From contig DASYRE010000058.1 of NCBI GenBank assembly GCA_036004685.1, positions 1 to 35,207 on the forward strand: DNA of 35,207 nt, given 5' to 3'. This document shows positions 2,624 through 23,838 of the stretch, in pieces. Within the stretch, counting starts at the first letter, position 1. The number at the start of each line of letters is the position of its first letter. The stretch comes from Candidatus Polarisedimenticolia bacterium. Lineage in GTDB: Bacteria; Acidobacteriota; Polarisedimenticolia; Gp22-AA2; AA152. The notes under the pieces were generated by a model. The model had not been told where the DNA came from and did no database searches. It saw only the letters and a program-made list of their open reading frames with translations. Both the position numbers and the translations under genes were made by a program.

Positions 2624-3427
2624 ATGGTAGTGTTCGCCGTGACCATGCATGTCTCGTCGACGCTGCCTTCCGGAAGTTCGCCAGGGGATGGGCCCGATCC
2701 GCTGCATCCTCACCCGCCTCTGAAGCGATACTACGCGAGCGAAGAGGAGCGGCGGAAGCGCGTCAGCCGGTGGTTCGACCAGGCCGCGGCGCACTACAAC
2801 TTCATCACGCAGGCGATGAGCCTCGGCTCGGGGCATCGCTACCGGAAGCGGGCGCTGGCGCGCGCCGGCCTGGCGCGCGGCATGAAAGTCCTGGACGTCG
2901 CCTGCGGGACGGGCATCCTCTCCTCGCACGCCCAACGGATCGTCGGAGAGGAGGGTCTCGTGGTCGGCCTCGATCTCAGCGCCGGCATGCTCCGGCAGGC
3001 GCGGCGAGGCGGCGTGCGCCACCTCGCCCAGGGCGACGCCGAGCTGCTTCCGGTGGCGAGCGGGCAGTTCGACTTCCTCGACATGGGCTACGCGCTGCGC
3101 CACGTCGCCGACCTGCGCGCCACGTTTCAAGAGTTCCGGCGCGTGCTGAAGCCCGGGGGAAAAATCCTGATCCTGGAAATCACGCCGCCCCGCTCCCGCT
3201 TCCGGCTCGGCCTGGTGCGCCTCTGCCTCGGACGGGTGGTCCCGATGATCGCCCTGCTGGTGGGCGGCGGGCGGGGATCGCAGGAGCTGATGAAGTACTA
3301 CTGGGACACCATCGAGACTTGCGTCGCGCCGCCGGTCATCCTCGCGGCGCTTCGGGAAGCGGGCTTCTCGAGCGCCGAGCGGCACGTGGAGCTGGGCATC
3401 TTCAGCGAGTACCTGGCGGCAAGCTGA
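2624..3427 (+). CDS. UbiE/MenG-like class I SAM methyltransferase
   Basis: A 267-residue soluble methyltransferase of the UbiE/MenG (demethylmenaquinone/ubiquinone C-methyltransferase) family. RRKRVSRWFDQAAAHYNFIT (44 onward) is the family's N-terminal signature. VLDVACGTG (89-97) is the SAM-binding motif I, followed by the acidic GLDLSAGML, then MGYALRHVAD (UbiE usually GLRN) and FRRVLKPGGKILILE. It starts the plus-strand part of the polyene-type cluster, 45 bases before the chorismatase. Family knowledge says quinone C-methylation; the neighbour makes a quinone-ring precursor in XanB2 systems, so this enzyme could serve quinone or pigment synthesis. Start is uncertain: ATG 2624 follows GGAAGG too closely, and ATG 2645 has no clear ribosome site. 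Confidence 0.85.
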   Translation: MVVFAVTMHVSSTLPSGSSPGDGPDPLHPHPPLKRYYASEEERRKRVSRWFDQAAAHYNFITQAMSLGSGHRYRKRALARAGLARGMKVLDVACGTGILSSHAQRIVGEEGLVVGLDLSAGMLRQARRGGVRHLAQGDAELLPVASGQFDFLDMGYALRHVADLRATFQEFRRVLKPGGKILILEITPPRSRFRLGLVRLCLGRVVPMIALLVGGGRGSQELMKYYWDTIETCVAPPVILAALREAGFSSAERHVELGIFSEYLAAS

Positions 3428-3472
3428 GCGTCGCCTCGCCGGCGAGCGGCGGCGATCTGGAGGAACCGGACC

Positions 3473-4492
3473 TTGGTTTCGCTGGAACTCCCGGTCGGAT
3501 CCCGCGAGCCCCGCGTCGAGCTCCTGGTCGTGGAGGCCGAGCGCCTGGAGGCCGAGCTGGCGCGCCGGCGCGGCCGCGTCCTGATGGCCAAACGCTACGG
3601 CGGCCCCCTGGCGCGGCTCGACGCCGAGGCTCCCCTCGCCGAAGTGCCGAACCGGGTCCTGTGCGGCGCTCCCCGAGCCGAGATCTGGATCACACCGCGA
3701 CCGGCCACGTGCCACCGCGCGAACGGGCTGACCTGGGCGGAGGACGGCCGCGCCCTGTTCGGCTGCTCGCGGCGCCGGGCCGGCGAGAGGACGGACGAGG
3801 ACACGTTCGCGGCCTACCGCGAGGTCTTCGCCCTGCTCGACGAGCGCGGCTACCGAAACCTCCTGCGCGTCTGGAACTACCTGCCGCGGATCAATCAGGA
3901 TCAGCGGGGCGTCGAATGCTACAAGCGCTTCAACGTCGGCCGGGCGCGCAGCTTCGAGGAGCGCTACGGCTGCTCGGTGGAAACCGAGTTCTCGGCGTCG
4001 ACCGCGGTCGGCACTCCGGGGGAGGACCTGGTCGTCTGTTTCGCCGCCGGCCGCGAGCCGGGAATTCACCTGGAGAATCCCCGGCAGACCTGCGCCTACC
4101 GGTACCCGCCCGAGTACGGTCCGAAGAGCCCCTCCTTCGCGCGCGGAACGCTCGCTCCCGCCGGGTGGGGAGAGACCTTTTTCCTCTCGGGAACGGCGAG
4201 CGTGGTCGGCCACGAGACGAAGCATCCGGGGGACCCCCTGGGGCAGCTCGACGAGGCTCTCGCCAACATCGACGCGCTGCTGGACTGCGCCGCGGGGCGC
4301 AGCGGCAGGGGTCGCGCGGTGCGCGGCGCGCGGTTCGATCTGCTCAAGACCTACGTCCGGCGGCGAGAGGATTTCCCCGCCATTCGCGAGGCGCTCGCCA
4401 AGCGCCTCGACCCCGCCACGCCGGCGATCTACCTCGAGGCCGACATCTGCCGGAAGGACCTGCTGCTCGAGATCGAAGGGGTGTGGCGGTGA
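3473..4492 (+). CDS. Chorismatase (XanB2/Hyg5/FkbO family)
   Basis: A 339-residue homologue of the chorismatases that split chorismate to pyruvate plus 3-hydroxybenzoate, 4-hydroxybenzoate or a dihydrodiol. Visible family marks are RVWNYLPRIN in the middle, the highly characteristic ENPRQTCAYRYPPEYGPKSP (about 200-220), GWGETFFLSGTASVVGHET, and the C-terminal LEADICRKDLLLEIEG. Cys326 lies seven residues before Glu333, the arrangement I recall for the 3-hydroxybenzoate-forming Hyg5 type. The start is TTG 3473, supported by GGAGGA eight bases upstream. Its stop overlaps the acyltransferase GTG by four bases (GTGA), indicating translational coupling. In xanthomonadin-producing bacteria this enzyme supplies the aromatic pigment starter; the polyketide genes next door make the same role likely here. 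Confidence 0.88.
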   Translation: MVSLELPVGSREPRVELLVVEAERLEAELARRRGRVLMAKRYGGPLARLDAEAPLAEVPNRVLCGAPRAEIWITPRPATCHRANGLTWAEDGRALFGCSRRRAGERTDEDTFAAYREVFALLDERGYRNLLRVWNYLPRINQDQRGVECYKRFNVGRARSFEERYGCSVETEFSASTAVGTPGEDLVVCFAAGREPGIHLENPRQTCAYRYPPEYGPKSPSFARGTLAPAGWGETFFLSGTASVVGHETKHPGDPLGQLDEALANIDALLDCAAGRSGRGRAVRGARFDLLKTYVRRREDFPAIREALAKRLDPATPAIYLEADICRKDLLLEIEGVWR

Positions 4493-5460
4493 TCGGATCT
4501 CCGGCCGCGCCCGGAACCGCGCGGCGGCTCGCGAGGCCGCCCCACGCTCCGGAGCGCGGATGGTCGTGGCGGCTCCTCCGATCTTTCCACGTCACCGGCG
4601 TGTTCTGGTATCGCTTCCATTGCTGGGTCGTACGGACCTTCCCGCCGCCGGTCCTGGTCCTCTTCATCTATTTTTTCCAGGTCGCCTTCTTCCTCTGCCT
4701 ACGGCGGATCCGCGCGGCGATCGCCTCGAATCTCGAGCCGGTCCTCGGTGCGTGCGGATGGTGGGAGAGGCAGCGGCGGATTTGGAGGACGATGCTGTCC
4801 TTCGGCTGGTGCCTGACGGAGCGCTACGAGCGCCTGAGCACGCAGCGGCCGTTCCACCTGGAGATGGAAAACGCCGCCCACCTGATGGAGGTGTCGGGGC
4901 CCGGCGCCGGCATCCTGTTCGTCACGGCGCACCTGGGAAACTACGAGGTCGGCTCGATGCTGCCGGCGGAGGTGGGGAGCCGTCCGGTCCACCTGGTCCG
5001 CGAGCCGGAGGCCGACCCGAAGGCGCAGGCCTTCATCCAGGACGTCCTGGCGGGATTCACTCAGACGCGCTACTCGATGCACTTCCAGAACAGCGACCCG
5101 CTCCAGGGGCTTGCGCTCCTGGACGCTCTGCGGCGCGGGGAAATCGTGGCGGTGCAGGGCGATCGGCCGCGCGCCGGGACGCGGGCGATCGAGGCGACGC
5201 TCTTCGGGAAGCCGTTCCCGCTGCCGCCGGGCCCCGCCGCGCTGGCGCGGACCTCCGGAGTCCCGATGCTCCCGGTGTTCGTCTTCCGCGAGCGGCGGCG
5301 GCGCTACCGCGTCGTGTTCCGCCCGCCGATCCGCGTGGCGCGCACCGACGACGCCTCCGCCGATCTCACCACCGCGATGCGGCAGGTGGCGGCGGAAGTC
5401 GAATGGGCGATCCGCGCCGCCCCCCACCAGTGGTTCTGCTTCAAACAGCTTTGGCCGTGA
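4489..5460 (+). CDS. LpxL/HtrB-like lysophospholipid acyltransferase
   Basis: A 323-residue membrane-associated acyltransferase. A hydrophobic segment lies at about 52-70 (rich in F, V, L). TAHLGNYE puts H148 and E153 in the HX4(D/E) catalytic motif of the LpxL/HtrB family, which transfers acyl chains from ACP. GDRP and the PLPPGPAALARTSG block also match the family. The GTG start at 4489 overlaps the chorismatase stop and is preceded by AAGG. In aryl polyene and xanthomonadin clusters an acyltransferase of this fold is thought to attach the polyene to a lipid or sugar carrier in the outer membrane; I infer that role here. The last 20 bases overlap the convergent dehydratase gene. Confidence 0.85.
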   Translation: MIGSPAAPGTARRLARPPHAPERGWSWRLLRSFHVTGVFWYRFHCWVVRTFPPPVLVLFIYFFQVAFFLCLRRIRAAIASNLEPVLGACGWWERQRRIWRTMLSFGWCLTERYERLSTQRPFHLEMENAAHLMEVSGPGAGILFVTAHLGNYEVGSMLPAEVGSRPVHLVREPEADPKAQAFIQDVLAGFTQTRYSMHFQNSDPLQGLALLDALRRGEIVAVQGDRPRAGTRAIEATLFGKPFPLPPGPAALARTSGVPMLPVFVFRERRRRYRVVFRPPIRVARTDDASADLTTAMRQVAAEVEWAIRAAPHQWFCFKQLWP

Positions 5461-6238
5461 GCCAGGTGCTGAGGCTGCCGGCGGCGACGATCTCGCCGGC
5501 CGCTCCCACCTCGAAACGATAAGTGCTCAAAGGGGGCGCCAGTCCCGCCAGGCGGACGAACGCGGTGTGCGGTCGTCCCGCTTCGATCCGCGGCCGGGCG
5601 AATCGCACGTCCCGCGCTCCGACGAGGTAGCCGAGGAGAGCCCCTTCATTCCCCCCGCCTCGGCGGCGCTGAAGCGCTTCGAACACGGCCGCCGTCTGGG
5701 CCGCCATCTCGAGCGCCGCCAGAGCCGGCGCCGAGCCTGCCCCGGCGAGCGCGCACGCGGCCGGCACGCTGGCCGAGCAGGCGATCTCCTCCATGCTCCC
5801 GCCTTCGACGCCTTCCACGAAGCGCATCGGCGCGCGGTGCGGAATCAGCTCGTCGAGAGGAGGTACGTCAGGCAGAGGCCGAATCTCCCGGCCCATCGAC
5901 GCGGCGATCGGGGAAAAGGGCGAGCCGAGCGCGACGAGGCCCTGGGCGACGATTTCCGCGTCACGGCGCACTGCCAGCCGGGTCGTCTTGTCGATCGCCG
6001 TCCCGCCGCTGGCATCCACCTGAAGCCTCTCGCCGGGCCCGACCAGGCGGCGGAATCGAAGCGAGTGAATCTCGGTGAGCGCCGGAGCGGCGACGCCGGG
6101 ATCGATGGCGCGCAGGCCAAGGTCGAGAAGACAGACGCCCGGCAGGATCGGACGCCCCGGGAAGTGTCCTTCGAAGAGGATCCCGGAGGCGGGGATGGCG
6201 AGCGGGCGCCGGACGGCTGCCCGCGGGTCCGGGCTCAC
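5441..6238 (-). CDS. Fused double-hotdog 3-hydroxyacyl-ACP dehydratase (ApeI-like + ApeP-like)
   Basis: A 265-residue protein with two hotdog domains in one chain. Domain 1 (about 1-115) holds FEGHFPGRPILPGVCLLD, the FabZ/FabA active-site helix, with His25 and an acidic residue Asp39 at the position of the catalytic Glu/Asp. Domain 2 (about 120-265) starts PPLDELIPHRAPMRFVEGV (His134) and continues ALEMAAQTAAVF with Glu177, the pattern of the predicted 3-hydroxyacyl-ACP dehydratases of aryl polyene clusters. Such clusters usually encode these as two separate proteins, so the fusion is notable. The role is removal of water from beta-hydroxyacyl-ACP to form conjugated double bonds. The GTG start (6238) overlaps the stop of the upstream methyltransferase as GTGA. 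Confidence 0.8.
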   Translation of the reverse strand: MSPDPRAAVRRPLAIPASGILFEGHFPGRPILPGVCLLDLGLRAIDPGVAAPALTEIHSLRFRRLVGPGERLQVDASGGTAIDKTTRLAVRRDAEIVAQGLVALGSPFSPIAASMGREIRPLPDVPPLDELIPHRAPMRFVEGVEGGSMEEIACSASVPAACALAGAGSAPALAALEMAAQTAAVFEALQRRRGGGNEGALLGYLVGARDVRFARPRIEAGRPHTAFVRLAGLAPPLSTYRFEVGAAGEIVAAGSLSTWLTAKAV

Positions 6239-7410
6239 GCGCGCACGGCCGTGATCGCGGCGACCACGAACGCCGGGCAGACGTCGCGGATCCGCGCGAT
6301 GTCGGGATAGACCCTGGCGTCGCGAAAGCCGCAGGCGTGAAGGGCCGCGGTCCAGTTCTCCGGCGCCAGAAACCCGCCCCTCGGGCGCCAGGGCGCGACC
6401 AGGCGCGGGGCGCGGAACACCCCCAGGAGGTTGAACAGGAACTCGATGCCGACCGGCCGATCGGCGAAGGGGCGGATGCACTCGGAGAGAACCAGGGATC
6501 CCCCCGGCTTCAGGACGCTCCGGATCTCCCCCAGCGTGAATTCGAGATCGCGCGCGACGTGCAGCGTGTTGATCCCCGTGACCAGCGCGAAGGGCTCCGC
6601 CGGCAGGCCCGCCTCGGCGAAGGGACGATCCATGTCGAGCCGGCTGAAGGCAAGCGGGACGGCCGCGAATCTCGCCGAAAGCCGCCTCTGGCCGCGGCGC
6701 AGGAAGGAGGGGGCGATTTCGGTGAAGCGGTAGGCCCGGATCCCCCCGGCCCGTCCGGTCTGGGCGAAGCGCTCCAGAATCGCCTCCGCCCCGCTTCCGA
6801 GGCCGCCGCCGAGCTCGAGGATCTCTCCTCCGGAAGGCAGAGCCCGCTCCGCCGCCAGAGCGCCGAGACGGTTGCTGATCGCGTAGATTGGGTTGTCGTT
6901 GGAGAAGTACTCGAACCAGGCCCCGATCCGATCGGGCGCGAACAGCGCCTCCTCGCCGCTCACCTCGCCGTGGAGCACCGCCGGGTAGTGTCCGGCCGCG
7001 AGATCGGCCATCCGGTACGACGCCAGCGACGACGGGTCGTGCTTTTGTTGGGCGTCGAGGATCTCGCGGAGATCGGGATCGGCCGGAATCGCCGCGACCC
7101 GATAGCGCCCTCCAACCTCGCGCGCGGCGATCCCCCGGGCAGCCAGCGTGGCGAGCAGCCATTCGACGGGCACGGGAGCGGCGGCCGGGTCGAGTCCGGC
7201 GCGCGCCGCGATCTCCGCGGCCGTCCCCGGCTCGCGCGCGGCCGGCTCGAGCCCCAGCTCGCCCGCGATCCGGACCGCGAGCCGCCCGACGTATTCTTCG
7301 AAGAGAACGCACGACCCGATGAAACGATCGTCGAACAGGGGAAGCAGCTCGGCGGGGAGCAGCCGCTCGAGGCGCTCGTCGCGTCCGGCTCGGAAGGCGG
7401 CAGGGAGCAT
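6235..7410 (-). CDS. SAM-dependent methyltransferase of the polyketide cluster
   Basis: A 391-residue class I methyltransferase. The N-terminal 140 residues look helical and winged-helix-like (TAAEIAARAGLD, WLLATLAARGI), as in plant-type O-methyltransferases and PKS methylation domains. ILELGGGLGSG (197-207) is SAM motif I, followed by YRFTEIAPSFLRRGQRRL, similar to the TDxSxxFL strings of PKS C-methyltransferases. VTGINTLHVARDLEFTLGEI and VLKPGGSLVLSE complete the fold. Start ATG 7410 lies 17 bases after the ketoreductase stop; the gene is coupled to the dehydratase through a 4-base overlap. Whether it methylates oxygen on the aromatic head or carbon on the chain cannot be told. Confidence 0.82.
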   Translation of the reverse strand: MLPAAFRAGRDERLERLLPAELLPLFDDRFIGSCVLFEEYVGRLAVRIAGELGLEPAAREPGTAAEIAARAGLDPAAAPVPVEWLLATLAARGIAAREVGGRYRVAAIPADPDLREILDAQQKHDPSSLASYRMADLAAGHYPAVLHGEVSGEEALFAPDRIGAWFEYFSNDNPIYAISNRLGALAAERALPSGGEILELGGGLGSGAEAILERFAQTGRAGGIRAYRFTEIAPSFLRRGQRRLSARFAAVPLAFSRLDMDRPFAEAGLPAEPFALVTGINTLHVARDLEFTLGEIRSVLKPGGSLVLSECIRPFADRPVGIEFLFNLLGVFRAPRLVAPWRPRGGFLAPENWTAALHACGFRDARVYPDIARIRDVCPAFVVAAITAVRA

Positions 7411-7427
7411 CGAATCCCTCGCGGCGC

Positions 7428-8159
7428 TCAGGCCGAGGAGCCCGCGTCGACGACCAGCGTCTGGCCGGTGACGGAGGCGGCGCCCTCGGAGAGGAGGAAC
7501 ACCACCGACGCCGCCACCGAGACGGCGGTCACGCCGGCCGGCAGCGCTTCGGTGGCTCGCAGGGCGGCGACCTTCTCGGGCGTGGCGTCCGCGACCATCT
7601 CGGTCGGGACGAAACCGGGGATCACGGCGTTGACCCGGATGCCGCGCGAGCCGACCTCGCGGGCGAGGGAGCGCGTCAGCCCCAGGATCCCGGCCTTGGC
7701 GGCCCCATAGGCGGTCTGCCCCGCGACGCCGCGCATCGCGGTCAGGGACGACACGTTGACGATCGATCCGGCCCGCCGGCTCACCATCCGCGGGATCACC
7801 GCCCGGCAGCAGCGGAAGACCCCTCCGAGGTTCGCGTCGATCAGCTCCTCCCAGGCTTCGTCGGGGAGCGCCGCCAGGAGCGCGTCCTTCCGGACGCCGG
7901 CGTTGTTCACGAGACCGGCGATCGGCCCGACCTGCTCCTCGACCTCCAGGACGAGCTCGCCCGGGCGCCGGCGATCCAGCAGGTCGAAGCGGTAGGCCCG
8001 CGCCGCGCCGTCCAGCTCGGCGCACAGGCGCTTCGCCTCCTCTTCCCGCGCGCGCCAGGTGAACGCGACCTTCCATCCGCCGGCGGCCAGGGCGCGGACC
8101 ACCTCGCTGCCGATCCCTCGGCTTCCTCCCGTCACCAGAGCGACTTTCGATGTCGACAT
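7428..8159 (-). CDS. FabG-like 3-ketoacyl-ACP reductase (SDR)
   Basis: A 243-residue short-chain dehydrogenase/reductase of normal FabG length. The NADPH-binding GGSRGIG is at 11-17, NNAG at 85-88, and the catalytic Ser138 (NVSS), Tyr151 and Lys155 (YGAAK) are all present. The C-terminus ends VTGQTLVVDAG, the FabG pattern. It would reduce the beta-ketoacyl-ACP made by the ketosynthase pair, before the fused dehydratase acts. Start ATG 8159 has GGAG nine bases upstream. It stands 32 bases from the small membrane gene and is co-directional with the whole minus-strand PKS block. Confidence 0.9.
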   Translation of the reverse strand: MSTSKVALVTGGSRGIGSEVVRALAAGGWKVAFTWRAREEEAKRLCAELDGAARAYRFDLLDRRRPGELVLEVEEQVGPIAGLVNNAGVRKDALLAALPDEAWEELIDANLGGVFRCCRAVIPRMVSRRAGSIVNVSSLTAMRGVAGQTAYGAAKAGILGLTRSLAREVGSRGIRVNAVIPGFVPTEMVADATPEKVAALRATEALPAGVTAVSVAASVVFLLSEGAASVTGQTLVVDAGSSA

Positions 8160-8191
8160 CGCGCATCACTCCATTCGGCTGTGGCGTCTGT

Positions 8192-8524
8192 TCACCGAAT
8201 CCATTGAGCTCGCGCTGCTCTCGGCCCTGGCCCGTTCCGCGCTAGAATCACCTCGTAGCCTCTTTCCAATGCAAGCCGAATCCCACACACGACAACGACT
8301 GGCAAGGTGAGAAGTGTCAGCTGGCTATGTACGGCACTATAGATGAAGGCCGGCAAACCAACTTCCGTGAGCGTCCCCTTGTTACTAAGGTAGTGATGGT
8401 TGCCGTTGGACGATCGCCAGTCGGCCGTGCCGCCGATCACCGCGCAAACCGTCCAGAAAACCAGAAAATTCAGCATTGCGGCGCCACAAATTGCCTGGAG
8501 CAATCTGTTCCTGGCTGGCTTCAT
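8192..8524 (-). CDS. Small conserved-looking membrane protein inside the PKS operon
   Basis: About 110 residues with two hydrophobic segments (roughly 10-31 and 69-85) flanking a polar loop. In the loop the order GGTADW, YLSNKG, LTEVGLPAF, IYSAVHSQ resembles an unnamed family of short proteobacterial membrane proteins with G-x-YYL..HG..TEVS..F.YS..H. I recognise no function. The ATG at 8524 is used; a GTG at 8533 is also possible and neither has a clear ribosome site. The coding DNA and its flanks (about 8190-8550) are visibly richer in A and T than the neighbouring PKS genes, which hints at separate acquisition. Confidence 0.6.
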   Translation of the reverse strand: MKPARNRLLQAICGAAMLNFLVFWTVCAVIGGTADWRSSNGNHHYLSNKGTLTEVGLPAFIYSAVHSQLTLLTLPVVVVCGIRLALERGYEVILARNGPGPRAARAQWIR

Positions 8525-8593
8525 AGGATCCACAACTTCATGGGTCGTGGATGCGGCGCGCCACGCGTCCGTCAGGCGCTTTTCCCCCGTCCG

Positions 8594-9817
8594 TCAGGAC
8601 GCTCTCTCCAGGAGGAGCCAGGCGGCCGCGCCGCCCGAAGCGAGCCCCGTGAGCAGGACGCGCGCCCGCTTCTCCGGCACCGCGCCGCGATGCGGCGAGA
8701 AGCCGATTTCGGGGTCGAGCTCCGGCGCCTCGGGGAACGGCGCAAGCGCCTTCCCTTCCAGGGCGAGCAGCCCCGCGGCGAGAATCCCGCCGCCATATTC
8801 TCCGGTGACCGCCTTGGGCGTCATTACCGGCGGAAGGGGCGCCTCACCCCAGACCGCCTTCAGGACGCGGGCTTCAAGAAGGTCACCGCGCTTTGCTCCC
8901 GAGGCTCCGGAGACGATCATGGAAATCCCGGCCGCTCCGCCGGCCGTCGCGAGGCCCGCCCGCAGCGCGGCGGCGAGCGCGTCGTGTCCCGTGCCCCAGT
9001 CGGTCACGCCGGCGGTGGCGTCGAACGCGGCGCCGCTCCACCTCACCCGCGCCAGGATCCTCGCGCCGCGGGCGCGCGCCGCATCCTCGCGCTCGAGGAC
9101 GAGGAGGCTCGCGCCTTCCCCCGCCAGGATACCGTTGCGGCGCCGGTCGAGGGGCCGGGGCTGCTCGGCGAGCTTCTCCTCCGCCTGAGCCAGAGCCCCG
9201 AAGCGTCCCAGAAGGGCGTGCAGCAGCGGCGGAATCTCTTCGACGGCCCCGGCCAGCGCCCGGTCCACTCTCCCCTCCCGCACCGCCTGCGCGCCCCGCC
9301 CCACCGCGAGCAGCGGCCCCGCCTCCCGCTGGACGATCGTGACGTTCGGGCCGCGCGCGCCGACCGCGATCGCCAGCTGCGCCGCGGGGGTGTTCGCGAC
9401 GCATTCCGAGAAGTAGAAGGGCTGGGCCGCCTCCGCCCCTTCGAGGAAGATCTGCCGCAACAGCTTCTCGGTGTTGTGGACGGGACCGAAGGCGGTGGCC
9501 AGGTAGACGCCGGCGCGGCCTCCCTCGGAGGCGACCGTCTCGATCCCGGCGTCCGGCAGCGCCATCTTGCCGGCAGCCACGGCCAGCTTGGAGGGAAAGC
9601 TCATCCGCCGGGCGGCGGCCGGGGGAATCCAGCGCGACAGGTCGGGCTCGCGGATCAGCGCGGCGAGCCGGGAGCCCCCTTCGCGGTGCCAGCCACCGCC
9701 GCGATCCACCTCCGAAGCGACCGGCTTGCCCGCGGCCAGCGCCTTCGCCAGCGCCTCGCGCCCGAATCCATAGGGACCGATCGTCCCGAGCCCGGTCACG
9801 ACCGTCTCAATCGGCAT
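8594..9817 (-). CDS. Ketosynthase-like chain-length factor (KS-beta), active site lost
   Basis: A 407-residue thiolase-fold protein clearly related to FabF (VVTGLGTIGPYG start, EGASLLVLE, TPKAVTGEYGGG), but without the catalytic triad. The active-site cysteine is Glu165 (TIVQREAG in place of the ACxSG helix). The first histidine motif NAHGTxT is replaced by IVSGASGA, and the second histidine is Glu340 (TGE for TGH). This is the state of chain-length factors, which pair with a working ketosynthase and shape the product tunnel; classic KS-beta proteins carry Gln where this has Glu. Start ATG 9817 has GGAGGA upstream and overlaps the ketosynthase stop by 11 bases, as expected for a heterodimer made in equal amounts. 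A plain KS pseudogene is unlikely because the frame is intact. Confidence 0.83.
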   Translation of the reverse strand: MPIETVVTGLGTIGPYGFGREALAKALAAGKPVASEVDRGGGWHREGGSRLAALIREPDLSRWIPPAAARRMSFPSKLAVAAGKMALPDAGIETVASEGGRAGVYLATAFGPVHNTEKLLRQIFLEGAEAAQPFYFSECVANTPAAQLAIAVGARGPNVTIVQREAGPLLAVGRGAQAVREGRVDRALAGAVEEIPPLLHALLGRFGALAQAEEKLAEQPRPLDRRRNGILAGEGASLLVLEREDAARARGARILARVRWSGAAFDATAGVTDWGTGHDALAAALRAGLATAGGAAGISMIVSGASGAKRGDLLEARVLKAVWGEAPLPPVMTPKAVTGEYGGGILAAGLLALEGKALAPFPEAPELDPEIGFSPHRGAVPEKRARVLLTGLASGGAAAWLLLERAS

Positions 9818-11081
9818 CGCGATCCTCCGGGCGGGGACGGGAGAAGATGAGCGCGGCGTTCGCACCGCCGAAAGCGAGGCTGGTGGAGAGCGCATGACGC
9901 GCTCGCTTCAGCTTGAGCGGCGAGCCCAGGACCAGCTGCACGCCAATCGCCGGATCGGACTCCCCTTCGGCGGGCATCGGGTGGACCTCCCCGGCGACCA
10001 GGCAGAGGATCGTCGCCACCGCCTCGACCGCTCCGGCCGAGCCCAGCAGGTGCCCGACCAGCGACTTGGTGGAAGTCACCGGAAGCTCGCGCGCCCGCTC
10101 GCCGAACACGGAGGCGAGCGCTTCGCATTCGGCGAGGTCGTTCAGCGGCGTTCCCGTTCCGTGGGCGTTGACGAAATCGATCTCGCCGGGATCGAGCTGG
10201 GCGTCGGCCAGCGCGGCGCCGATCGCCTCCGCCGCGCCGGCCCCGAGAGGATGAGGGGCGGTCATGTGATAGGCGTCACAGGTCGCCGCCTCGCCGGCCG
10301 CCACCGCGAGCGGCCGGGCCCCGCGCGCCAGAACGCGCTCGAGCGGCTCGAGCACGATCACGCCGGCGCCCTCGCCGATCGACAGCCCGGCGCGATCCTT
10401 GCGAAAGGGGCGGCAGGGGCGCTCGTCGACCGACCTCAGGGCGTTGAATCCGGCGTAGGTGAGGCGGCAAAGCGAGTCGGATCCTCCCGTAATCGCCGTT
10501 TCGACCTCGCCCGAGCGGACGGCGCGGAGGGCGTCGCCGATCGCCATCCCGCCCGAAGCGCACGCGGCGGAGACGGTCTGGACGGGGCCGCCGATTCCGA
10601 TCTCGCGCGCCACCGCGTCGCCCGGGGCGTTGTATTGCTGCGGGGCGAGAATGCTCATCCGCGGGAGTCTCCGGCGCGCGCCCCCTTCGGCGGCCAGCAG
10701 CGCCTCGAAGTAGCGCTCGTTCTCGAGCATCCCGCCCGTGCTGCTGCCGAAATAGACGCCGGCCCGCCGCGTCCAGTCGCCGCCGCCGAGCCCCGCCTGC
10801 GACAGCGCCTCGCGGGCGGCGCAGACGGCGTAGCGATCGGCGAGGGAGATGCGCGCCGGTTTGCCGCGGGGCCGCGGCGCGGCGCGGGCGAGATCGACCT
10901 GGGCGGCGACATGAGTGCGATAGCCCGAATGGTCGAAACGATCGAACGGACCGATGGAAGTCTTGCCGGATCGCAGGCCGTTCCAGGTGGAGGGGACGTT
11001 CCAGCCGAAAGGAGTTACCGCGCCGAGCCCGGAGACGACGACGGTGCGGGGACGGGCAGGGGCGCGATCAACTCGCGGCAT
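9807..11081 (-). CDS. Beta-ketoacyl-ACP synthase II-type ketosynthase
   Basis: A 424-residue FabF-type ketosynthase with a complete Cys-His-His triad: Cys174 in VSAACASGG, His307 in NAHGTGTPLND and Lys339/His344 in TSTKSLVGHLLGSAGA. It would catalyse decarboxylative condensation of malonyl-ACP onto the growing chain. Start ATG 11081 overlaps the end of the ACP gene by 14 bases; the frame continues upstream without KS sequence. The next gene is its degenerate partner, so the pair matches the KS/CLF arrangement of aryl polyene and other highly reducing type II systems. Primary fatty acid synthesis is the alternative, but the neighbouring chorismatase and CLF argue against it. Confidence 0.9.
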   Translation of the reverse strand: MPRVDRAPARPRTVVVSGLGAVTPFGWNVPSTWNGLRSGKTSIGPFDRFDHSGYRTHVAAQVDLARAAPRPRGKPARISLADRYAVCAAREALSQAGLGGGDWTRRAGVYFGSSTGGMLENERYFEALLAAEGGARRRLPRMSILAPQQYNAPGDAVAREIGIGGPVQTVSAACASGGMAIGDALRAVRSGEVETAITGGSDSLCRLTYAGFNALRSVDERPCRPFRKDRAGLSIGEGAGVIVLEPLERVLARGARPLAVAAGEAATCDAYHMTAPHPLGAGAAEAIGAALADAQLDPGEIDFVNAHGTGTPLNDLAECEALASVFGERARELPVTSTKSLVGHLLGSAGAVEAVATILCLVAGEVHPMPAEGESDPAIGVQLVLGSPLKLKRARHALSTSLAFGGANAALIFSRPRPEDRDAD

Positions 11082-11358
11082 CCGCGTTCCCCGCGGCGGC
11101 GAGGCGTCGCTCGATGAAGGCCGCCAGAGCGCCGACGGACGCGAACGCCTCCCGGCCGACCTCGTGGCTCTGAATCGGAATCTTGAACTCTTTCTCGAGC
11201 GCGACGACCAGCTCGAGGGCGTCGACGGAGTCGAGCCCGAGGCCTTCTCCGAAGAGCGGGGAGTCGTCGGCGATGTCGGAAGGAGCGAGCCCATCCAGAC
11301 GGAGGGCGCTTACCAGGAGGGACTTGATCTTCGAGCGAATCGTCGGACTTTCCGGCAT
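11068..11358 (-). CDS. Acyl carrier protein
   Basis: A 96-residue ACP. The phosphopantetheine attachment serine is Ser44 in GLGLDSVDALELVVALE, with the usual acidic helix II and a three-helix length; PLFGEGLGLDSVDALEL is the family core. It would carry the starter and growing polyketide for the KS/CLF pair. The ATG at 11358 is preceded by an AGGGTCAAGAG leader, a modest ribosome site. It is first in the minus-strand operon ACP-KS-CLF-membrane protein-KR-MT-DH. The DSVD rather than DSLD core is common in secondary-metabolite ACPs. Confidence 0.9.
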   Translation of the reverse strand: MPESPTIRSKIKSLLVSALRLDGLAPSDIADDSPLFGEGLGLDSVDALELVVALEKEFKIPIQSHEVGREAFASVGALAAFIERRLAAAGNADAAS

Positions 11359-11361
11359 CTC

Positions 11362-11391
11362 TTGACCCTGCCCGTCCGGCGGCGTTAGGCT
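11362..11391 (+). promoter_or_regulatory. Weak candidate promoter for the deacetylase
   Basis: TTGACC (11362-11367), an 18-base spacer, then TAGGCT (11386-11391). Transcription would start near 11398, before the GTG at 11415. It resembles the TTGACC-17-TAGGTT promoter proposed at 27129. The -10 is poor, so this is tentative. Confidence 0.25.
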
Positions 11392-11414
11392 CAGACGCCC
11401 GTTTCCACGAAAAG

Positions 11415-12302
11415 GTGAAGGAGTATAGCACGGATCCCCTCGTCGCCAAGCCCGAGACGCCGCTGCTTCGCCCCGCATCCCGCTCCTGGCGAGCCTCCGC
11501 GCTGATGCGCGTTTCGGCGGGGATGCACGCGGGGGCGCTCGGGACGCTGATCTTCGCCCCGCGCGCCTGGCCGGGCGTTCTCGGGGCGATCGCCGCCGAT
11601 CACTTGACCGTGGTCGGCGCCGGCCTGCTGCCGCGCAGCGCCTGGCTGGGCCCGGTTCTCGTGCGCCTCCCGGGCCCCGCCGAGGCCCGGCGGGAGATCG
11701 CCCTGACGTTCGACGACGGCCCCGATCCGGCGACGACGCCCCGGATTCTCGATCTCCTCGAGGCGAGAGCGGCCCGCTCGACCTTCTTCTGCATCGGCCG
11801 CCGAGTCGAAGAGCGCCCGGAGCTTGCCGCCGAAATCGTCCGGCGCGGCCATCGGGTGGAGAACCACTCCTACCGGCACCCCGCTGGCTTCTGGTTCCTG
11901 CCGCCGGCGGCGCTGCGCGCCGAGATCGAGCGCGGCCAGGAGGCGATCGCCGGGGCGGCGGGCCGGGCTCCGCGGCTCTTCCGGGCCCCGGCCGGCATCC
12001 GGAGCCCCCTTCTCGAGCCGGCGCTCGCGCAGGCCGGGCTCGATCTGGTGGCCTGGACGCGGCGCGGATTCGACACCGTGACGGGGAAGTCGGAGGCGGT
12101 CCTGGGCCGGCTGCTTCGCGGCCTCTCGCCCGGCGACATCCTGCTCCTCCACGACCGGGCCGCCCGGCGCACGGCCTCCGGTTCCCCCGTCGTCCTGGAA
12201 GTGCTCCCGCGCCTGCTCGACGCCATCGACGCGGCGGGACTCAAGCCGGTGCCGCTCGGACCGCCGGCGCCGGGGCTCGAGCGATTGCCGGCCGCCCGAT
12301 GA
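11415..12302 (+). CDS. NodB-type polysaccharide deacetylase
   Basis: A 295-residue carbohydrate esterase 4 (NodB) protein. Motif 1 is TFDDGPDP (Asp100 base, Asp101 metal), motif 2 is HSYRHP (His151, His155), motif 3 is FRAPAGIRSP (about 189-198), motif 4 lies around VAWTRRGFD and motif 5 is LLLHD (His246). All metal and catalytic positions are present. A hydrophobic N-terminal region (about 36-72) suggests membrane anchoring with the catalytic part outside. Family members remove N-acetyl groups from chitin-like, peptidoglycan or glycolipid substrates. It diverges from the ACP, and I infer a link to the lipid-sugar part of the product. The GTG start is weakly supported; ATG 11505 is the alternative. 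Confidence 0.83.
   Translation: MKEYSTDPLVAKPETPLLRPASRSWRASALMRVSAGMHAGALGTLIFAPRAWPGVLGAIAADHLTVVGAGLLPRSAWLGPVLVRLPGPAEARREIALTFDDGPDPATTPRILDLLEARAARSTFFCIGRRVEERPELAAEIVRRGHRVENHSYRHPAGFWFLPPAALRAEIERGQEAIAGAAGRAPRLFRAPAGIRSPLLEPALAQAGLDLVAWTRRGFDTVTGKSEAVLGRLLRGLSPGDILLLHDRAARRTASGSPVVLEVLPRLLDAIDAAGLKPVPLGPPAPGLERLPAAR
11422..11449 (-). promoter_or_regulatory. Candidate extended -10 promoter of the type II PKS operon
   Basis: On the minus strand TTGGCG (11449-11444), a 16-base spacer ending in TGC, and TATACT (11427-11422) form a good sigma-70 promoter with an extended TGn -10. Transcription would begin near 11415, about 57 bases ahead of the ACP ATG at 11358. The element overlaps the first codons assigned to the divergent deacetylase, which makes that deacetylase start less certain or places it under mutual control. 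Confidence 0.5.
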
Positions 12303-12411: not shown

Positions 12412-13374
12412 TCAGCGGCCCGCCTTCGGCTCCAGGATCCCCTTCAGATCCATGATCGTGTTCTGGTCGGAGATGATCACCGAGATCTTGTCGGAGAGCT
12501 TGTCGACGTAGAGGTACTTGATGTAGTTCGGATTCCGTTGCAGGGCCTGGGTCACCGTCTCGATCGCCCGCGCCCTTCCTTGGGCCTCGATCACCTTGCG
12601 CTCCGCCTCCCGCTGCTCCTTTTCCAGCACGTACTTCATCTGCTCGGCCGCCTGCTGGGCGATCTGCTTCGCCTCGATCGCTTTGGCGAAATCGTCGGTG
12701 AAGCGGACGTCCCGGAGGACCACCTCGTCGATCAAGAAGCCGTCCTTCTCCACCAGCTGCTTGATCTTGGCGTTGATTTCGTCCTGGATGGCGGAGCGCT
12801 TGGAGGAATAGACGTCCATCACGGCGTACTCGGAGATCACCAGCCGGATCACCGACCGCACCGCCGGGCGGATGATTTTCTCCTCGTAGTCGGGGCCGAT
12901 CCGCTGGTGGATGTCCACCACCCGGTCCGGCTGCAGGTGGTGCCAGACGGTGATGTCGATACCGACCTGAAGCCCTTCCCGGGTCGGGGACCAGAGCGAG
13001 TCGTCGACCTGCGACCGCCTTCCCTCCCCTCGCGCCCCCGCCATGGTGTATTCCAGCCGCCGCAGATCGTAGACCTGGCTCTGCGTGATGAAGGGAGGAA
13101 CGAGCGTGACTCCCTGGCGGGCGAGCCGGAACGATTTCGACAGGGTGTTGAACACGACCAAGGCATGTCCGACGGGGACGACTCGGATCGAAGCGGGGAT
13201 CGACAGGAGGAGGACGAGCAGCAGCGCGGCCAGGACGAGCCAGCGGATCAAGCTGCCGGGGGCGGGAAGCTGCCGGCGGCCGTCGGGGCGCAGGACCGTG
13301 ATGCCGCGCCGGCGGAGCAGCTGGGCCGCGACGGCGGCGAGCAACAGCAGCGCCAGGAAGAGGGCGACGCCCAT
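12412..13374 (-). CDS. SPFH/Band 7 (prohibitin-like) membrane protein
   Basis: A 320-residue protein with two hydrophobic segments (about 3-20 and 42-60) and an SPFH domain from about residue 62: IRVVPVGHALVVFNTLSKSF, then RQGVTLVPPF, VDIHQRIG and YSSKRSAIQDEI. The coiled-coil-prone AIEAKQIAQQAAEQMKYVLEKEQREAERKVIEAQGR region follows, written here only as a description of residues about 225-265. Prohibitin-like proteins form membrane scaffolds that modulate proteases and microdomains. It sits alone, convergent with the deacetylase. In the 109-base gap an inverted repeat GGCGAGGC/GCCTCGCC (12318-12325, 12351-12358) is present but has no U-run. Confidence 0.87.
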   Translation of the reverse strand: MGVALFLALLLLAAVAAQLLRRRGITVLRPDGRRQLPAPGSLIRWLVLAALLLVLLLSIPASIRVVPVGHALVVFNTLSKSFRLARQGVTLVPPFITQSQVYDLRRLEYTMAGARGEGRRSQVDDSLWSPTREGLQVGIDITVWHHLQPDRVVDIHQRIGPDYEEKIIRPAVRSVIRLVISEYAVMDVYSSKRSAIQDEINAKIKQLVEKDGFLIDEVVLRDVRFTDDFAKAIEAKQIAQQAAEQMKYVLEKEQREAERKVIEAQGRARAIETVTQALQRNPNYIKYLYVDKLSDKISVIISDQNTIMDLKGILEPKAGR

Positions 13375-13538
13375 GCTGAGTCACCCCACGAGCCGGACGA
13401 TCCGGCGGCCGGGAAGGATAGCACGCCGGCCGCCGGGTGTCATTCGCGGCCGGAAGAGCCTTCCCGCCTCGCCGGCAAGCGAACGGAATCCTCGCGGCCG
13501 GCATCGAAGAAGCGACTCTCAGGCTTCGGGCGCCGCGA

Positions 13539-14414
13539 TTACTCCGCCAGCAGCTCTCGGTGCGCCGCGACCAGCTCCGCGCGCTGGCGCTTGTCCATCT
13601 TCGGGAATCGCAGATCGAGAGATTCGAGGGCTTCCACGACCACCTCGGCGACGACCAGGCGCGTGAACCACTTGTGGTCCGCCGGCACGACGTGCCAGGG
13701 AGCCTGCTGCGTCGCCGTGCTCCGGATCATCTCCTCGTAGGCCTTCCTGTAAGCGCGCCAGTGCCGCCGCTCCCTCACGTCCTCCGCGCGGAACTTCCAG
13801 TTCTTCTCCGGCTCGTCGAGCCGGCTGAGAAACCGCTTCTTCTGCTCCTCCGGCGAGACATGGAGGAAGAACTTGCGGAGCAGCACGCCGTTCCGGCCCA
13901 GGTAGCGCTCGTAGGCGTTGATGTCCTCGAAGCGCTGCTTCCAGATCTCCTTGCCGACCAGCCGCTGGGGGAGGTTCTGCCTCGCCAGCAGCTCGGGATG
14001 GACCCGCACCACGAGGACTTCCTCGTAATAGGAGCGGTTGAAGATGCCGATTCGCCCCCGTTCGGGCAGGCAGCGGTTGACGCGCCAGAGGTAATCGTGG
14101 TCCAGCTCCTCCCGGGACGGGGCCTTGAAAGAGAAGACCTGGCAACCCTGCGGGTTGATCCCCGACATGACGTTCCGGATGGTGCCGTCCTTCCCGGCGG
14201 CGTCCATCGCCTGGAAGATCAGGAGCAGCGCCCAGCGATCCTGCGCGAAGAGCTTCGGCTGAAGCTCGCCCAGGCGCGCGAGGCCGCGGTCCAGCCGCTT
14301 CCGCGCCTCGCTCTTCGACCGGATCCCGCCGGTGTCACGAGGATCGATCCGCTCGAGGCGAAACCGGTCGCCCGAGGCGATCCGGTACCGCTTTAGGGGA
14401 ACGGGGGATTTCAT
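13539..14414 (-). CDS. ppk2: Polyphosphate kinase 2 family protein
   Basis: A 291-residue single-domain PPK2, which phosphorylates nucleotides with polyphosphate. The Walker A equivalent is MDAAGKDGT (70-78), followed by VMSGINPQGCQVFSFKAPS; the Walker B region is IGIFNRSYYEEV (122-133), and the lid helices include the basic WKQRFEDINAYERYL and LHVSPEEQKKRF. Length and the GINPQG/ELDHDYLW strings fit the class I/III group rather than the double-domain class II. Class III members phosphorylate both AMP and ADP, but the class cannot be fixed by eye. It follows the TMEM175-type channel gene on the same strand after 87 bases that contain a short hairpin. Confidence 0.9.
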   Translation of the reverse strand: MKSPVPLKRYRIASGDRFRLERIDPRDTGGIRSKSEARKRLDRGLARLGELQPKLFAQDRWALLLIFQAMDAAGKDGTIRNVMSGINPQGCQVFSFKAPSREELDHDYLWRVNRCLPERGRIGIFNRSYYEEVLVVRVHPELLARQNLPQRLVGKEIWKQRFEDINAYERYLGRNGVLLRKFFLHVSPEEQKKRFLSRLDEPEKNWKFRAEDVRERRHWRAYRKAYEEMIRSTATQQAPWHVVPADHKWFTRLVVAEVVVEALESLDLRFPKMDKRQRAELVAAHRELLAE

Positions 14415-14434
14415 CCTCTCCCTCTCACGGGCGA

Positions 14435-14455
14435 GCCCGCAACGATCGTGCGGGC
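14435..14455. repeat. 7-bp inverted repeat between TMEM175-type gene and ppk2
   Basis: GCCCGCA (14435-14441), a 7-base loop ACGATCG, and TGCGGGC (14449-14455) form a perfect stem. It lies 20 bases ahead of the PPK2 ATG. No run of U follows in either direction, so an intrinsic terminator is unlikely; an operator or a leader hairpin is possible. Confidence 0.35.
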
Positions 14456-14501
14456 GCGCGACCCGCCAAGGGGTTGCGACTCCGGCCGGAACACCGGCGC
14501 G

Positions 14502-15077
14502 TCATGGCGCCAGGGTCCGTTCGATGCGCTTGTCGGGAACGAGCCAGATCACCGCGACCAGGACGTAAAGGCCGAACGCCGTCCAGGGGCTCACGAAGGC
14601 CAGCGCGATGGCCACCATGTAGAGGACGGGGGAGATCTTTCCCTTGAAGTCGCGGCCGACGGCGGTCGCCAGGACGGAATCCTTGCCGTGAAGCGCGATG
14701 AGAGCACGGGTCAGGATGAAGTAGGCGATCGCGGCGAGCAGCAGAATCACGCCATAGAGCGCGACCGGCCACTCGGCGAAGTCGTTCTCGCCCATCCAGC
14801 CGGTCACGAAGGGAACGAGCGACAGCCAGAAGAGGAGGTGCATGTTGGCCCAGAGCACGCGCCCGTCGACGTGCTTGATGGCCTGGAGAAGGTGATGGTG
14901 GTTGTTCCAATAAATGGCCAGAAAGATGAAGCTGATTGCGTAGCTGAGAAAGACCGGGATGAGCGGGCGCAAGTCGCTCAATCCGGCCGCATGCGGCACC
15001 TTCAGCTCCAGCACCATGATGGTGATGAGGATGGCCAGGACGCCATCGCTGAAGGCCTCCATGCGTCCCTTGCTCAT
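14502..15077 (-). CDS. TMEM175/DUF1211-type potassium channel
   Basis: A 191-residue integral membrane protein with the family signature RMEAFSDGVLAI (5-16) in the first helix, the mark of the bacterial TMEM175 relatives that tetramerise into K+ channels without a canonical TVGYG filter. About six hydrophobic segments follow, including LIPVFLSYAISFIFLAIYW, and NNHHHLL after the second helix is also typical. Length matches the single-repeat bacterial form. The ATG at 15077 is the only sensible start. It is 64 bases after the monooxygenase stop and co-directional with it; no functional link is evident. Confidence 0.87.
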   Translation of the reverse strand: MSKGRMEAFSDGVLAILITIMVLELKVPHAAGLSDLRPLIPVFLSYAISFIFLAIYWNNHHHLLQAIKHVDGRVLWANMHLLFWLSLVPFVTGWMGENDFAEWPVALYGVILLLAAIAYFILTRALIALHGKDSVLATAVGRDFKGKISPVLYMVAIALAFVSPWTAFGLYVLVAVIWLVPDKRIERTLAP

Positions 15078-15141
15078 GGCGGATTGGCGCGCACGACGTG
15101 CGGTCCCCCTCCCGGGAGAAGGAATGCGTTGGCGGGGATTT

Positions 15142-16380
15142 CTACACCCAGAGCGGCCAGAGCCTCTCCGCCCTCCGTCTCACCTCCGAGAACGGGATGT
15201 CAGCGCGCTTGGCGTGGGCGAAAATGCTGAGGCCAAGGCGCGAGGTGGCGGCGGCGCGGAGCATGTGAAAGCGATTCTCGAAGAGGCTTCTCACGCTCAT
15301 CCACGAGACGGCATCCGCCTCCGGTTTCCACCGTCTGTCGTAAAGACCGGCGGCCTCGAGGAGTTGGGCCGGCGACCCGCCTGCTTCGCCAATGCAGAGG
15401 TCCAGCGCCATCGCGGACTCCATCGCGGCGTTGACTCCCTGCCCAATCGGCGGGAACGCCGCGGCGGCGTCTCCGAGCAACACCGCCTTCCCGCCATGGA
15501 GCCGGGAACAAGTCAGCGTTTGGCCGATGTGGTAACAGGTGCGCTGCGCGAAGGCTGCAATCTTCTCCTCGCTCGTCAGCTCCAGGACGCGCGGAATGCG
15601 CAGGCGGAAAAATCGGCGGGCTTCCTCCGTGGACGAGAAGGCCTGCTTCGCCTTCGTTCCGACCGCGCAGAACCAGCGGGGCGTGTCGGATCCGTGATCT
15701 CCTTTGATGGCCCCCGCGACACAGAATGGTCGAGCGGACAATCCATGGAGATAGTTCTCGTCCATGCGATCCCCGACCCGATCGAGCTCGATCATCGTGC
15801 AGTAATTGGAATAGGACTTGGTCTCCACGGCGAATCCCGGAACTTGCTCGCGCAACGCCTTGCGCACCACCGATCCCGCTCCGTCTCCCCCGACGATGAA
15901 ATCGAATCGCCTCGTCGTCCTGTCCGATGGGGCACCCAAGGTCAGGGCGCCGGTGTGGACGTCCACCGACTCCACGCGGCACTCGAAGTTCAGCGATATC
16001 CATTCCTTGTACTTGTCTTCGACCAGAGCCATCAGGGCACGCAGGATGTCCCCCCGGGAGCCGGTCCAACCGGGCAGGCTCCACTCTTCGGTCCTGCCGC
16101 CCGGGATCTTGAGGCCTTTGAATCGGATCATCCTTTCATCGAAGTAGGCGCAGGCATCGATGTGGCGCAGGGCTTTGAGCCCGTGCCCCGAAATATCGAT
16201 CGTGTAGGAGCGATCGGGGTTGAAACGCGGCGCCCTCTCCGGATGAGCGTCTCGCTCGAAAATCGCGGTCCGAACCCCGCGGCGGGCAAGCGCGATCGCC
16301 GCCACCAGCGCGGCAGGACCGCTACCGACGAGCGCTATCTCCGCCGTCGCTTCCTTGTGGTTTGTGGGAATGACCGGCAA
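15142..16380 (-). CDS. FAD-dependent monooxygenase, kynurenine 3-monooxygenase-like
   Basis: A 412-residue flavoprotein aromatic hydroxylase. The N-terminal dinucleotide motif is GSGPAALVAAIALARRG (19 on, GxGxxA variant) ending at FERD (41-44). The mid-protein motif is GGDGAGSVVRKAL (164-176). The FAD-ribityl GD motif is LLGDAAAAFPPIGQGVNAAM (from 301), matching the kynurenine 3-monooxygenase style GDAAHxxxPFxGQGxN. RSYTIDISGHGLKALRHI resembles the KMO RSxNLALSxRGxxAL region. The start is TTG 16380 with AAGGAGGG about nine bases upstream. The substrate is unknown; no kynurenine-pathway genes are nearby. Its codons look somewhat less GC-rich than those of surrounding genes. Confidence 0.83.
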   Translation of the reverse strand: MPVIPTNHKEATAEIALVGSGPAALVAAIALARRGVRTAIFERDAHPERAPRFNPDRSYTIDISGHGLKALRHIDACAYFDERMIRFKGLKIPGGRTEEWSLPGWTGSRGDILRALMALVEDKYKEWISLNFECRVESVDVHTGALTLGAPSDRTTRRFDFIVGGDGAGSVVRKALREQVPGFAVETKSYSNYCTMIELDRVGDRMDENYLHGLSARPFCVAGAIKGDHGSDTPRWFCAVGTKAKQAFSSTEEARRFFRLRIPRVLELTSEEKIAAFAQRTCYHIGQTLTCSRLHGGKAVLLGDAAAAFPPIGQGVNAAMESAMALDLCIGEAGGSPAQLLEAAGLYDRRWKPEADAVSWMSVRSLFENRFHMLRAAATSRLGLSIFAHAKRADIPFSEVRRRAERLWPLWV

Positions 16381-21991: not shown

Positions 21992-22050
21992 CGGCTCCGG
22001 GGGCAGCCGGCGGTCTCCCGCGCCGGGGACGATCCCGCGTCCGGCGCGGC

Positions 22051-22836
22051 TCAAGAGGCGTCCCCGGCGAGGAACGCGCCGGCGGCGCGGGCCAGGCTCT
22101 CGGAGCAGAGGGCGACGCGGGTTCGAAGATGCCAAAGCGAGGGGACGAGCCAGGGGCGCGCCAGCGCGGCGAGCGCCACGCGCCGGCCGTCGACCGAGCC
22201 TTCGGAGTCGCGCAGGGCGTTGAAATCGAGCGGCAGGGACTCTTCCGCCGGATCGGAGATCGCCCGCAAGGCGACGTAGGGAAGGCCGCGCTCCGCGGCG
22301 GCGCGCGCGAAGGCCGCCGTCTCGAGGTCCGTGGCGGCGGCTTCGGTCCCCCAGGGGAGGCGCGCGTAGGCCTCCGACTTTTCCCGGGCGGCGCAGAGGA
22401 TCGAGCGCGTGCAGACGAAAATCGCGGGAGTGGCGCCCGTTCGACGCAGGAGCCGGCGGGTGTGCAAAGGGTCCGGCGGGGGGACCCCTCCCGTCTCGTC
22501 GATCACTTCGCGGGCCGCGACGATCTTCCCGGCCTCGAGATGAGGCGAAAGCCCCCCCGCCACCCCGAGAATCACCAGGCATTGCGCCTCGAAACGATCC
22601 AGCACGTCGCGGGCCCCGCTCTCCGCGCGCCGGGCCCCGTCTCCCGTGCTCGCCAGAACCGCCGGGATTCCGCCGAGACTCCCTTCCTCCGCCTGGATGC
22701 TGCCGTCTTTCCAGCGCCGTTCGGCCCTCAAGGCCGGCCGCAAGGCGCGGATCTCGCGCTCCAGGGCCGCCACGATCGCCACCTTCGTGAAGATCGCGGC
22801 CTCCGCCGCCGCCGGCGCGACAAGCCCCCGATTCAC
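22051..22836 (-). CDS. hpnG: Hopanoid-associated phosphorylase-like nucleosidase HpnG
   Basis: A 261-residue member of the MTA/SAH nucleosidase-purine phosphorylase superfamily. IVAALEREIRAL at the N-terminus, VILGVAGGLSPHLEAGKIVAA in the middle and TDLETAAFARAAAERGLPYVALRAISDPAEE near the end are superfamily signatures; the ETAA/SD pair marks the ribose and base site. In hopanoid bacteria HpnG removes adenine from adenosylhopane to give ribosylhopane. The GTG start (22836) overlaps the hpnA stop as GTGA, and its position after hpnH and hpnA supports the assignment. Confidence 0.85.
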   Translation of the reverse strand: MNRGLVAPAAAEAAIFTKVAIVAALEREIRALRPALRAERRWKDGSIQAEEGSLGGIPAVLASTGDGARRAESGARDVLDRFEAQCLVILGVAGGLSPHLEAGKIVAAREVIDETGGVPPPDPLHTRRLLRRTGATPAIFVCTRSILCAAREKSEAYARLPWGTEAAATDLETAAFARAAAERGLPYVALRAISDPAEESLPLDFNALRDSEGSVDGRRVALAALARPWLVPSLWHLRTRVALCSESLARAAGAFLAGDAS

Positions 22837-23831: not shown

Positions 23832-23838
23832 CTCGTCC

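Follow-up and report, generated by a model that had tools for sequence, protein, structure and literature searches.

A predicted chorismatase-linked aryl polyene-type cluster with a fused ApeI-ApeP dehydratase in an uncultured Acidobacteriota bacterium

The 35,207-nucleotide stretch analysed here (the window) is the complete contig DASYRE010000058.1 (C58) of a Candidatus Polarisedimenticolia bacterium (Acidobacteriota) whose genome, G000, is a draft assembly of 3.84 Mb in 62 contigs and probably a metagenome-assembled genome. Between positions 2624 and 12302, it carries a type II polyketide synthase (PKS) cluster that includes a chorismatase and resembles the systems that make aryl polyenes (APEs), yellow-pigment-type molecules bound to the membrane such as the xanthomonadins. 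Translation together with Pfam and NCBIfam profile scans identifies, on the plus strand, a UbiE-like methyltransferase (2624-3427; PF01209, E 4e-27), the chorismatase (3473-4492; FkbO/Hyg5 family TIGR04444, E 7e-74, under the curated cut-off), and an LpxL-type acyltransferase (4489-5460; PF03279, Lip_A_acyltrans, E 2e-23) whose start codon may be at 4489 or 4600. These are followed on the minus strand by a fused double-hotdog dehydratase (5441-6238; FabZ TIGR01750, E 1e-10), an S-adenosylmethionine (SAM)-dependent methyltransferase of 391 residues (6235-7410; PF08242, E 3.5e-9), a FabG/ApeQ-like ketoreductase (KR; 7428-8159; TIGR01830, E 3e-65; ApeQ, E 3e-35), a full-length chain length factor of 407 residues (CLF or KS-beta; 8594-9817), a ketosynthase (KS or KS-alpha; 9807-11081), and an ApeE-like acyl carrier protein (ACP; 11068-11358; PF00550, E 1e-11), before a NodB-type polysaccharide deacetylase closes the cluster on the plus strand (11415-12302; PF01522, E 4e-31). 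The ends and starts of KS and CLF, ACP and KS, and the SAM-dependent methyltransferase and dehydratase overlap in an operon-like manner. All genes that the original prediction had named in this region were found at their coordinates by translation and family scans. Its remark that the cluster lacks an aryl ligase, an ammonia lyase, a thioesterase, and an exporter also holds, as profile scans detected none of these among the scanned window genes.

Compared with the ape proteins of E. coli CFT073, which served as our reference set for APE homology, the core of this PKS is of the APE type and not that of a fatty acid synthase. In two phylogenetic trees of KS and CLF sequences, a 125-row tree and then a careful 38-row tree, the window KS groups with E. 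coli ApeO and not with FabF. E. coli FabF and its counterparts from the class genomes form a separate supported clade (support 99-100), and the CLFs make up a third clade distinct from KS and FabF alike. The KS keeps its Cys-His-His-Lys active site, while in the CLF the Cys is replaced by Glu and both His are lost (Gly and Glu). The ACP carries the DSxD serine and is 51% identical to ApeE (E 8e-22, compared with 1e-8 for AcpP), and the acyltransferase has an HX4E motif and matches the C-terminal half of ApeJ (residues 363-549, E 1e-11). E. coli ApeC gives only a weak local match to the window CLF, though an ARRxSxxSKLAV motif is common to both. The best PDB scores of the KS are to FabF enzymes, but this ranking mirrors database content and was set aside as a guide to phylogeny, which the tree decides. 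The genome has its own plsX-fabH-fabD-fabG-acpP-fabF operon on contig C26, apart from the cluster, and a genome search found no second CLF-like pair in G000, the sole other strong match being FabF. Primary fatty acid synthesis is ruled out by the trees and the separate fab operon; a grouping of the KS and CLF with primary fatty acid synthases, which the original prediction had named as evidence against its own proposal, was looked for in these trees and did not appear. A plasmid collection searched for relatives of the CLF yielded only generic FabF-like matches.

The dehydratase is a single chain of 265 residues composed of two hotdog halves. Its N-terminal half carries the ApeI motif and its C-terminal half matches E. 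coli ApeP (E 2e-10), and by sequence the two halves also match ApeI and ApeP in 6QSR, the ApeI:P heterocomplex of Xenorhabdus doucetiae (ApeP, chain B, E 7e-8). The Pfam match to ApeP is weak (PF22817, E 0.004), and the identity is backed instead by 6QSR, by E. coli ApeP and ApeI, and by the fold. An AlphaFold2 model (predicted local distance difference test score 86.5, predicted template modelling score 0.88) matches, from end to end, the double-hotdog dehydratase domains found in modular PKSs; its C-terminal half superimposes on 6QSR_B with a template modelling score of 0.78 on the target at 26% sequence identity. Across six genomes, the GHFPxxPILP motif of the first half as well as His134 and Glu177-xx-Ala-Gln of the second half are invariant. 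The halves are fused in all six of these genomes and encoded by neighbouring separate genes in the related genome G022; in G006, no dehydratase is linked to the cluster. The complex in 6QSR consists of two chains, the window enzyme of one. No report of such an ApeI-ApeP fusion was found in the literature searched, from which the principal ApeI:P publication was missing. The single-chain enzyme forms a natural bridge between the paired dehydratases of type II systems and the double-hotdog domains of modular PKSs and would be a handy construct for mechanistic studies.

The chorismatase is the only copy recovered by a genome search of G000 and matches Hyg5 (5AG3) with an E-value of 9e-59. When the Hyg5 residues discussed in PMC7170507 (173, 240, 327, and Glu334) are mapped by a constant offset of 9, the enzyme keeps Gly240, Cys327, and Glu334 but has Ala instead of Gly at position 173, so that the CH-II (Hyg5) signature of Gly, Gly, and Cys is only partly present; FkbO has Ala at both 240 and 327 (PMC7170507). 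Because Gly240, Cys327, and Glu334 are kept, the protein is by its residues Hyg5/XanB2-like rather than FkbO-like. Its predicted product is 3-hydroxybenzoate, perhaps also 4-hydroxybenzoate, and sequence cannot tell the former alone from a mixture of both, a caution also expressed in PMC3949708. Among the 41 genomes of the class, a chorismatase (E < 1e-30) occurs in 7 and an APE-type CLF (E < 1e-80) likewise in 7, with both present in 5 genomes (one-sided Fisher test, p 5e-4; this value is indicative only, and the thresholds were set after seeing the lists). In 4 of these 5 genomes (G000, G006, G033, and G025), the two genes lie within approximately 8 kb of each other. An aromatic ammonia lyase was also considered as a source of the starter and rejected: seven genomes each contain a strong match to PF00221, but these are unlinked to the cluster and likely represent housekeeping histidine ammonia-lyases.

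In gene content, the closest known systems are the arcuflavin and xanthomonadin clusters. The arcuflavin genes of the Betaproteobacterium Azoarcus sp. BH72 lie at two unlinked loci and comprise a XanB2-type chorismatase (arcB), a halogenase (arcA), a KS and a second KS-like protein, a KR, dehydratases, an acyltransferase, a polysaccharide deacetylase (arcN), a methyltransferase (arcM), LolA, an exporter, and an AMP (adenylating) ligase (arcT), with the activities of chorismatase and ligase shown in vitro (PMC3949708). They share with the window genome the chorismatase, ketosynthase pair, KR, dehydratases, acyltransferase, deacetylase, and methyltransferase, and also, through the candidate genes on C37, an AMP ligase, a halogenase-like enzyme, and the division into unlinked loci. 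They differ from it by two separate dehydratase genes, another gene order, an exporter and LolA within the locus, and a CLF counterpart for which just the N-terminal domain of a ketosynthase is recorded, whereas the window CLF is full length. The original prediction has to be revised in one point: the NodB deacetylase, the methyltransferase, and unlinked blocks of genes do have a precedent, as the Azoarcus loci combine all three with a chorismatase. The xanthomonadin systems of Xanthomonas and Lysobacter (PMC3691225) are likewise chorismatase-linked type II aryl polyene PKSs with KS, ACP, KR, two dehydratases, and an acyltransferase. Unlike the window cluster, however, they include ligase and exporter, and their CLF is of half length (ca. 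275 residues) with a conserved Gln in place of the Glu seen here, so the window cluster is not xanthomonadin proper. The apeA-R cluster of E. coli CFT073 (PMC8253772) has counterparts in the window for ApeE, ApeO, ApeQ, ApeI, ApeP, and the acyltransferase half of ApeJ, but it is without chorismatase or NodB, has separate ApeI and ApeP and a short ApeC (240 residues), and additionally encodes ApeR, a KS for initiation, together with Lol/MMPL genes for export. Three features set the cluster apart from known systems: the fusion of the dehydratases, the full-length CLF (compared to half-length in xanthomonadin systems), and a ligase apparently encoded in trans. The fused dehydratase and unusual layout noted in the original prediction stand.

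We consider it likely that the region is a xanthomonadin/arcuflavin-like aryl polyene cluster from the Acidobacteriota and that starter loading and part of the tailoring are encoded at a second locus. Homology, trees, and linkage support the core of the original prediction, a chorismatase-linked and aryl polyene-like type II PKS. The observations behind this reading are gene content, homology, active-site residues, phylogeny, conserved linkage, and the position of candidate ligase genes. On this reading, aryl polyenes started by a chorismatase would extend to uncultured Acidobacteriota.

Scanning named genomes with a CLF alignment yielded 43 loci of this cluster type (one of which, L110, is the same contig as the relative G006), nearly all of them from Acidobacteriota metagenome genomes that are often labelled Thermoanaerobaculia. 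Their recurring core order is NodB-ligase / ACP-KS-CLF-GT2-KR-MMPL-LpxL, with an ApeH-like ligase, an MMPL exporter, and a GT2 glycosyltransferase that corresponds to the N-terminal half of ApeJ; in most relatives, genes were called simply from codon usage, and start positions there are approximate. Because the gene set recurs together in related genomes, its grouping in the window is not due to chance. We did not find this Acidobacteriota cluster family described in the literature searched. An alternative is that the genes encode a specialised fatty acid synthase or a highly reducing type II PKS whose product is a lipid, polyunsaturated or hydroxylated, that lacks an aromatic head, with the chorismatase serving another pathway. 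Such a product would fit a cluster without an aryl ligase, a KS scoring best against FabF structures, and the fact that in most related loci no chorismatase lies within reach. On the other hand, the linkage of chorismatase and CLF in four genomes and their co-occurrence beyond chance, the presence of ApeE-, ApeI-, ApeP-, and ApeJ-type partners, and the ApeH-like ligases of related clusters all argue for an aryl polyene, and we regard the non-aromatic lipid as unlikely.

In most relatives, an AMP ligase gene adjoins the ACP and KS genes, often together with NodB, while G000 and G006, which have the closest clusters, show no ligase gene in the cluster. This gene was not lost at a contig end, because other genes flank the window cluster on both sides (CysK/VOC/SnoaL to the left, SPFH/PPK2/TMEM175 to the right) and the cluster of G006 is internal to a contig of 71 kb. 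On a different contig, both genomes encode a flavoprotein of the Trp-halogenase family next to an AMP ligase, at approximately 73.5-76.3 kb of C37 in G000 and 5.4-8.7 kb of C81 in G006, the latter with an extra ACP. The best candidate in G000 is the ligase at approximately 74.9-76.3 kb of C37, and a second ligase and the best GT2 homologue of the genome stand side by side at ca. 50.7-53.0 kb of this contig. A ligase tree joins the G000 copy to its counterpart from locus L152 (62% identity; Shimodaira-Hasegawa-like approximate likelihood ratio test, 97) and the G006 copy to the ligases of G007 and G008 (support 100), which places both, as judged from sequence, in other APE lineages. With ligases on C37 and no other CLF-like pair in G000, we infer as the simplest reading that the C37 ligase loads the starter in trans. 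The original prediction had left two options for starter loading: ligase homologues on C37 agree with the first, that it is encoded elsewhere, and a different way of working is not needed given that the ligase is in the cluster in most relatives and on C37 here. Loading without an adenylating ligase, by direct transfer or from another starter such as a fatty acyl-ACP, would explain why the G000 and G006 clusters drop the ligase gene and keep the rest. We give it little credence, since both genomes hold a halogenase-like enzyme with an APE-lineage ligase elsewhere and ligases of this kind are used by the xanthomonadin and arcuflavin systems (for arcuflavin, PMC3949708).

Next to the core genes, the cluster encodes two methyltransferases and the NodB protein, whose roles can only be suggested from their context; a head-group or other tailoring function is probable for the UbiE-like enzyme. 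Linked homologues of the latter occur in the clusters of G033, G024, and G026, the SAM-dependent methyltransferase has homologues in the clusters of G006 (69% identity) and G024 (55%), the KR is 78% identical to its counterpart in the G006 cluster, and NodB adjoins ligase or KS in many relatives. E. coli ApeB showed no convincing match to either methyltransferase. The UbiE-like protein scores 120 bits against TIGR01934 (cut-off 158), and its assignment to ubiquinone or menaquinone synthesis is ruled out by a canonical MenG/UbiE at C31 of the same genome (226 bits). A broader proposal sees the chorismatase and this methyltransferase as a quinone branch that supplies 4-hydroxybenzoate, methylates quinones, and just happens to lie beside a polyene cluster. 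It can appeal to the UbiE family membership of the methyltransferase and to the feeding of both ubiquinone and xanthomonadin by XanB2 according to papers cited in PMC7170507 and PMC3949708, but is very unlikely given that canonical MenG/UbiE proteins above the cut-off are found elsewhere in G000, G033, and G024 and that the G024 and G026 clusters have UbiE-like copies without a linked chorismatase.

For the aryl polyene pathway that we favour, the order of reactions, the partnership with the C37 ligase, and the product can be proposed as follows. The chorismatase would convert chorismate to 3-hydroxybenzoate, possibly with 4-hydroxybenzoate, which an ApeH/ArcT-like AMP ligase acting in trans (most plausibly the C37 candidate) would load onto the ApeE-like ACP. 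Repeated malonyl addition by KS-CLF, keto reduction by KR, and dehydration by the fused ApeI-ApeP enzyme would then yield a conjugated aryl polyene whose head group or chain end may be modified by the methyltransferases. Finally, the ApeJ-like acyltransferase would transfer the polyene to an anchor, either lipid or glycolipid, and NodB and the C37 GT2 may contribute.

Several points weigh against this interpretation. For this lineage, the product, its aromatic head group, and the enzyme activities are predictions. The C37 ligases are tied to the cluster only through analogy and the common draft assembly. In the tree, the branches of E. coli ApeO and ApeR are long, and the exact placement of ApeO is unsure. 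The GT2 of the usual gene set is absent from the window cluster, where an unconserved open reading frame takes its place. MMPL exporter, LolA, and thioesterase are also absent from the cluster (LolA was not searched genome-wide), and the only MMPL homologue in G000 is remote (26% identity, C54) and has no APE neighbours, whereas MMPL/Lol export genes lie within the clusters of G024, G026, and G022.

Beyond the assignment of the cluster itself, we tentatively suggest that the pathway could be a chimera, though we would not bet on it. The chain-building cluster and chorismatase would come from one APE lineage, the cluster having lost its own ligase, and the starter ligase and halogenase-like enzyme at another locus from a different one; in parallel, the ApeI-ApeP fusion would have produced a PKS-like double-hotdog dehydratase in a type II system. 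With the ligase missing from the cluster in two related genomes and trans-encoded ligases of other lineages, the exchange of type II starter enzymes between clusters becomes testable.

Additional observations concern relatives and neighbouring genes. Loci L083 and L084 (G007 and G008) represent a second APE-like subtype within the same order, in which an arsenate-reductase/phosphatase-like gene splits KS and CLF and which also has an ACP, a ligase, a PHP-domain protein, and an acyltransferase, plus a GT2 in G007; the flanking genes on G006 contig C81 are those of this subtype, without KS or CLF. A third, more distant KS/CLF/GT2/ligase subtype (L132-L148), usually with a halogenase-like flavoprotein, is widespread among Acidobacteriota, gp7 soil genomes included. 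Locus L113 (JAHZIX010000043.1), labelled Deltaproteobacteria, has an Acidobacteriota-type KS/CLF/ACP/ligase set nested in the Acidobacteriota tree, reflecting either transfer or misbinning. On contig C196 of the closest relative, G006 (L017, 15371-18136), a LolA-like protein and an ABC transporter pair lie beside the chorismatase, possibly an export set in place of MMPL. On C37 of G000 (L075), a long radical SAM protein (13102-15153) and a PHP-domain protein (15284-16261) neighbour the unlinked AMP ligase and GT2. Within the window, the open reading frame at the GT2 position (8192-8533, minus strand; 113 codons, with a low GC content of 56%) has apparent membrane segments, fails the codon model, is not conserved, and has only a weak homologue in G026; it may be an insertion or an ORFan. 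A flavin adenine dinucleotide-dependent monooxygenase (PF01494; 15142-16380, minus strand) lies a few genes off the cluster and is not kept beside it in related clusters, and a hopanoid/isoprenoid group at 18942-26897 comprises DXS, a squalene/phytoene synthase-type protein, an HpnA-like epimerase, an HpnH-like DUF3463 radical SAM protein, and a squalene-hopene cyclase.

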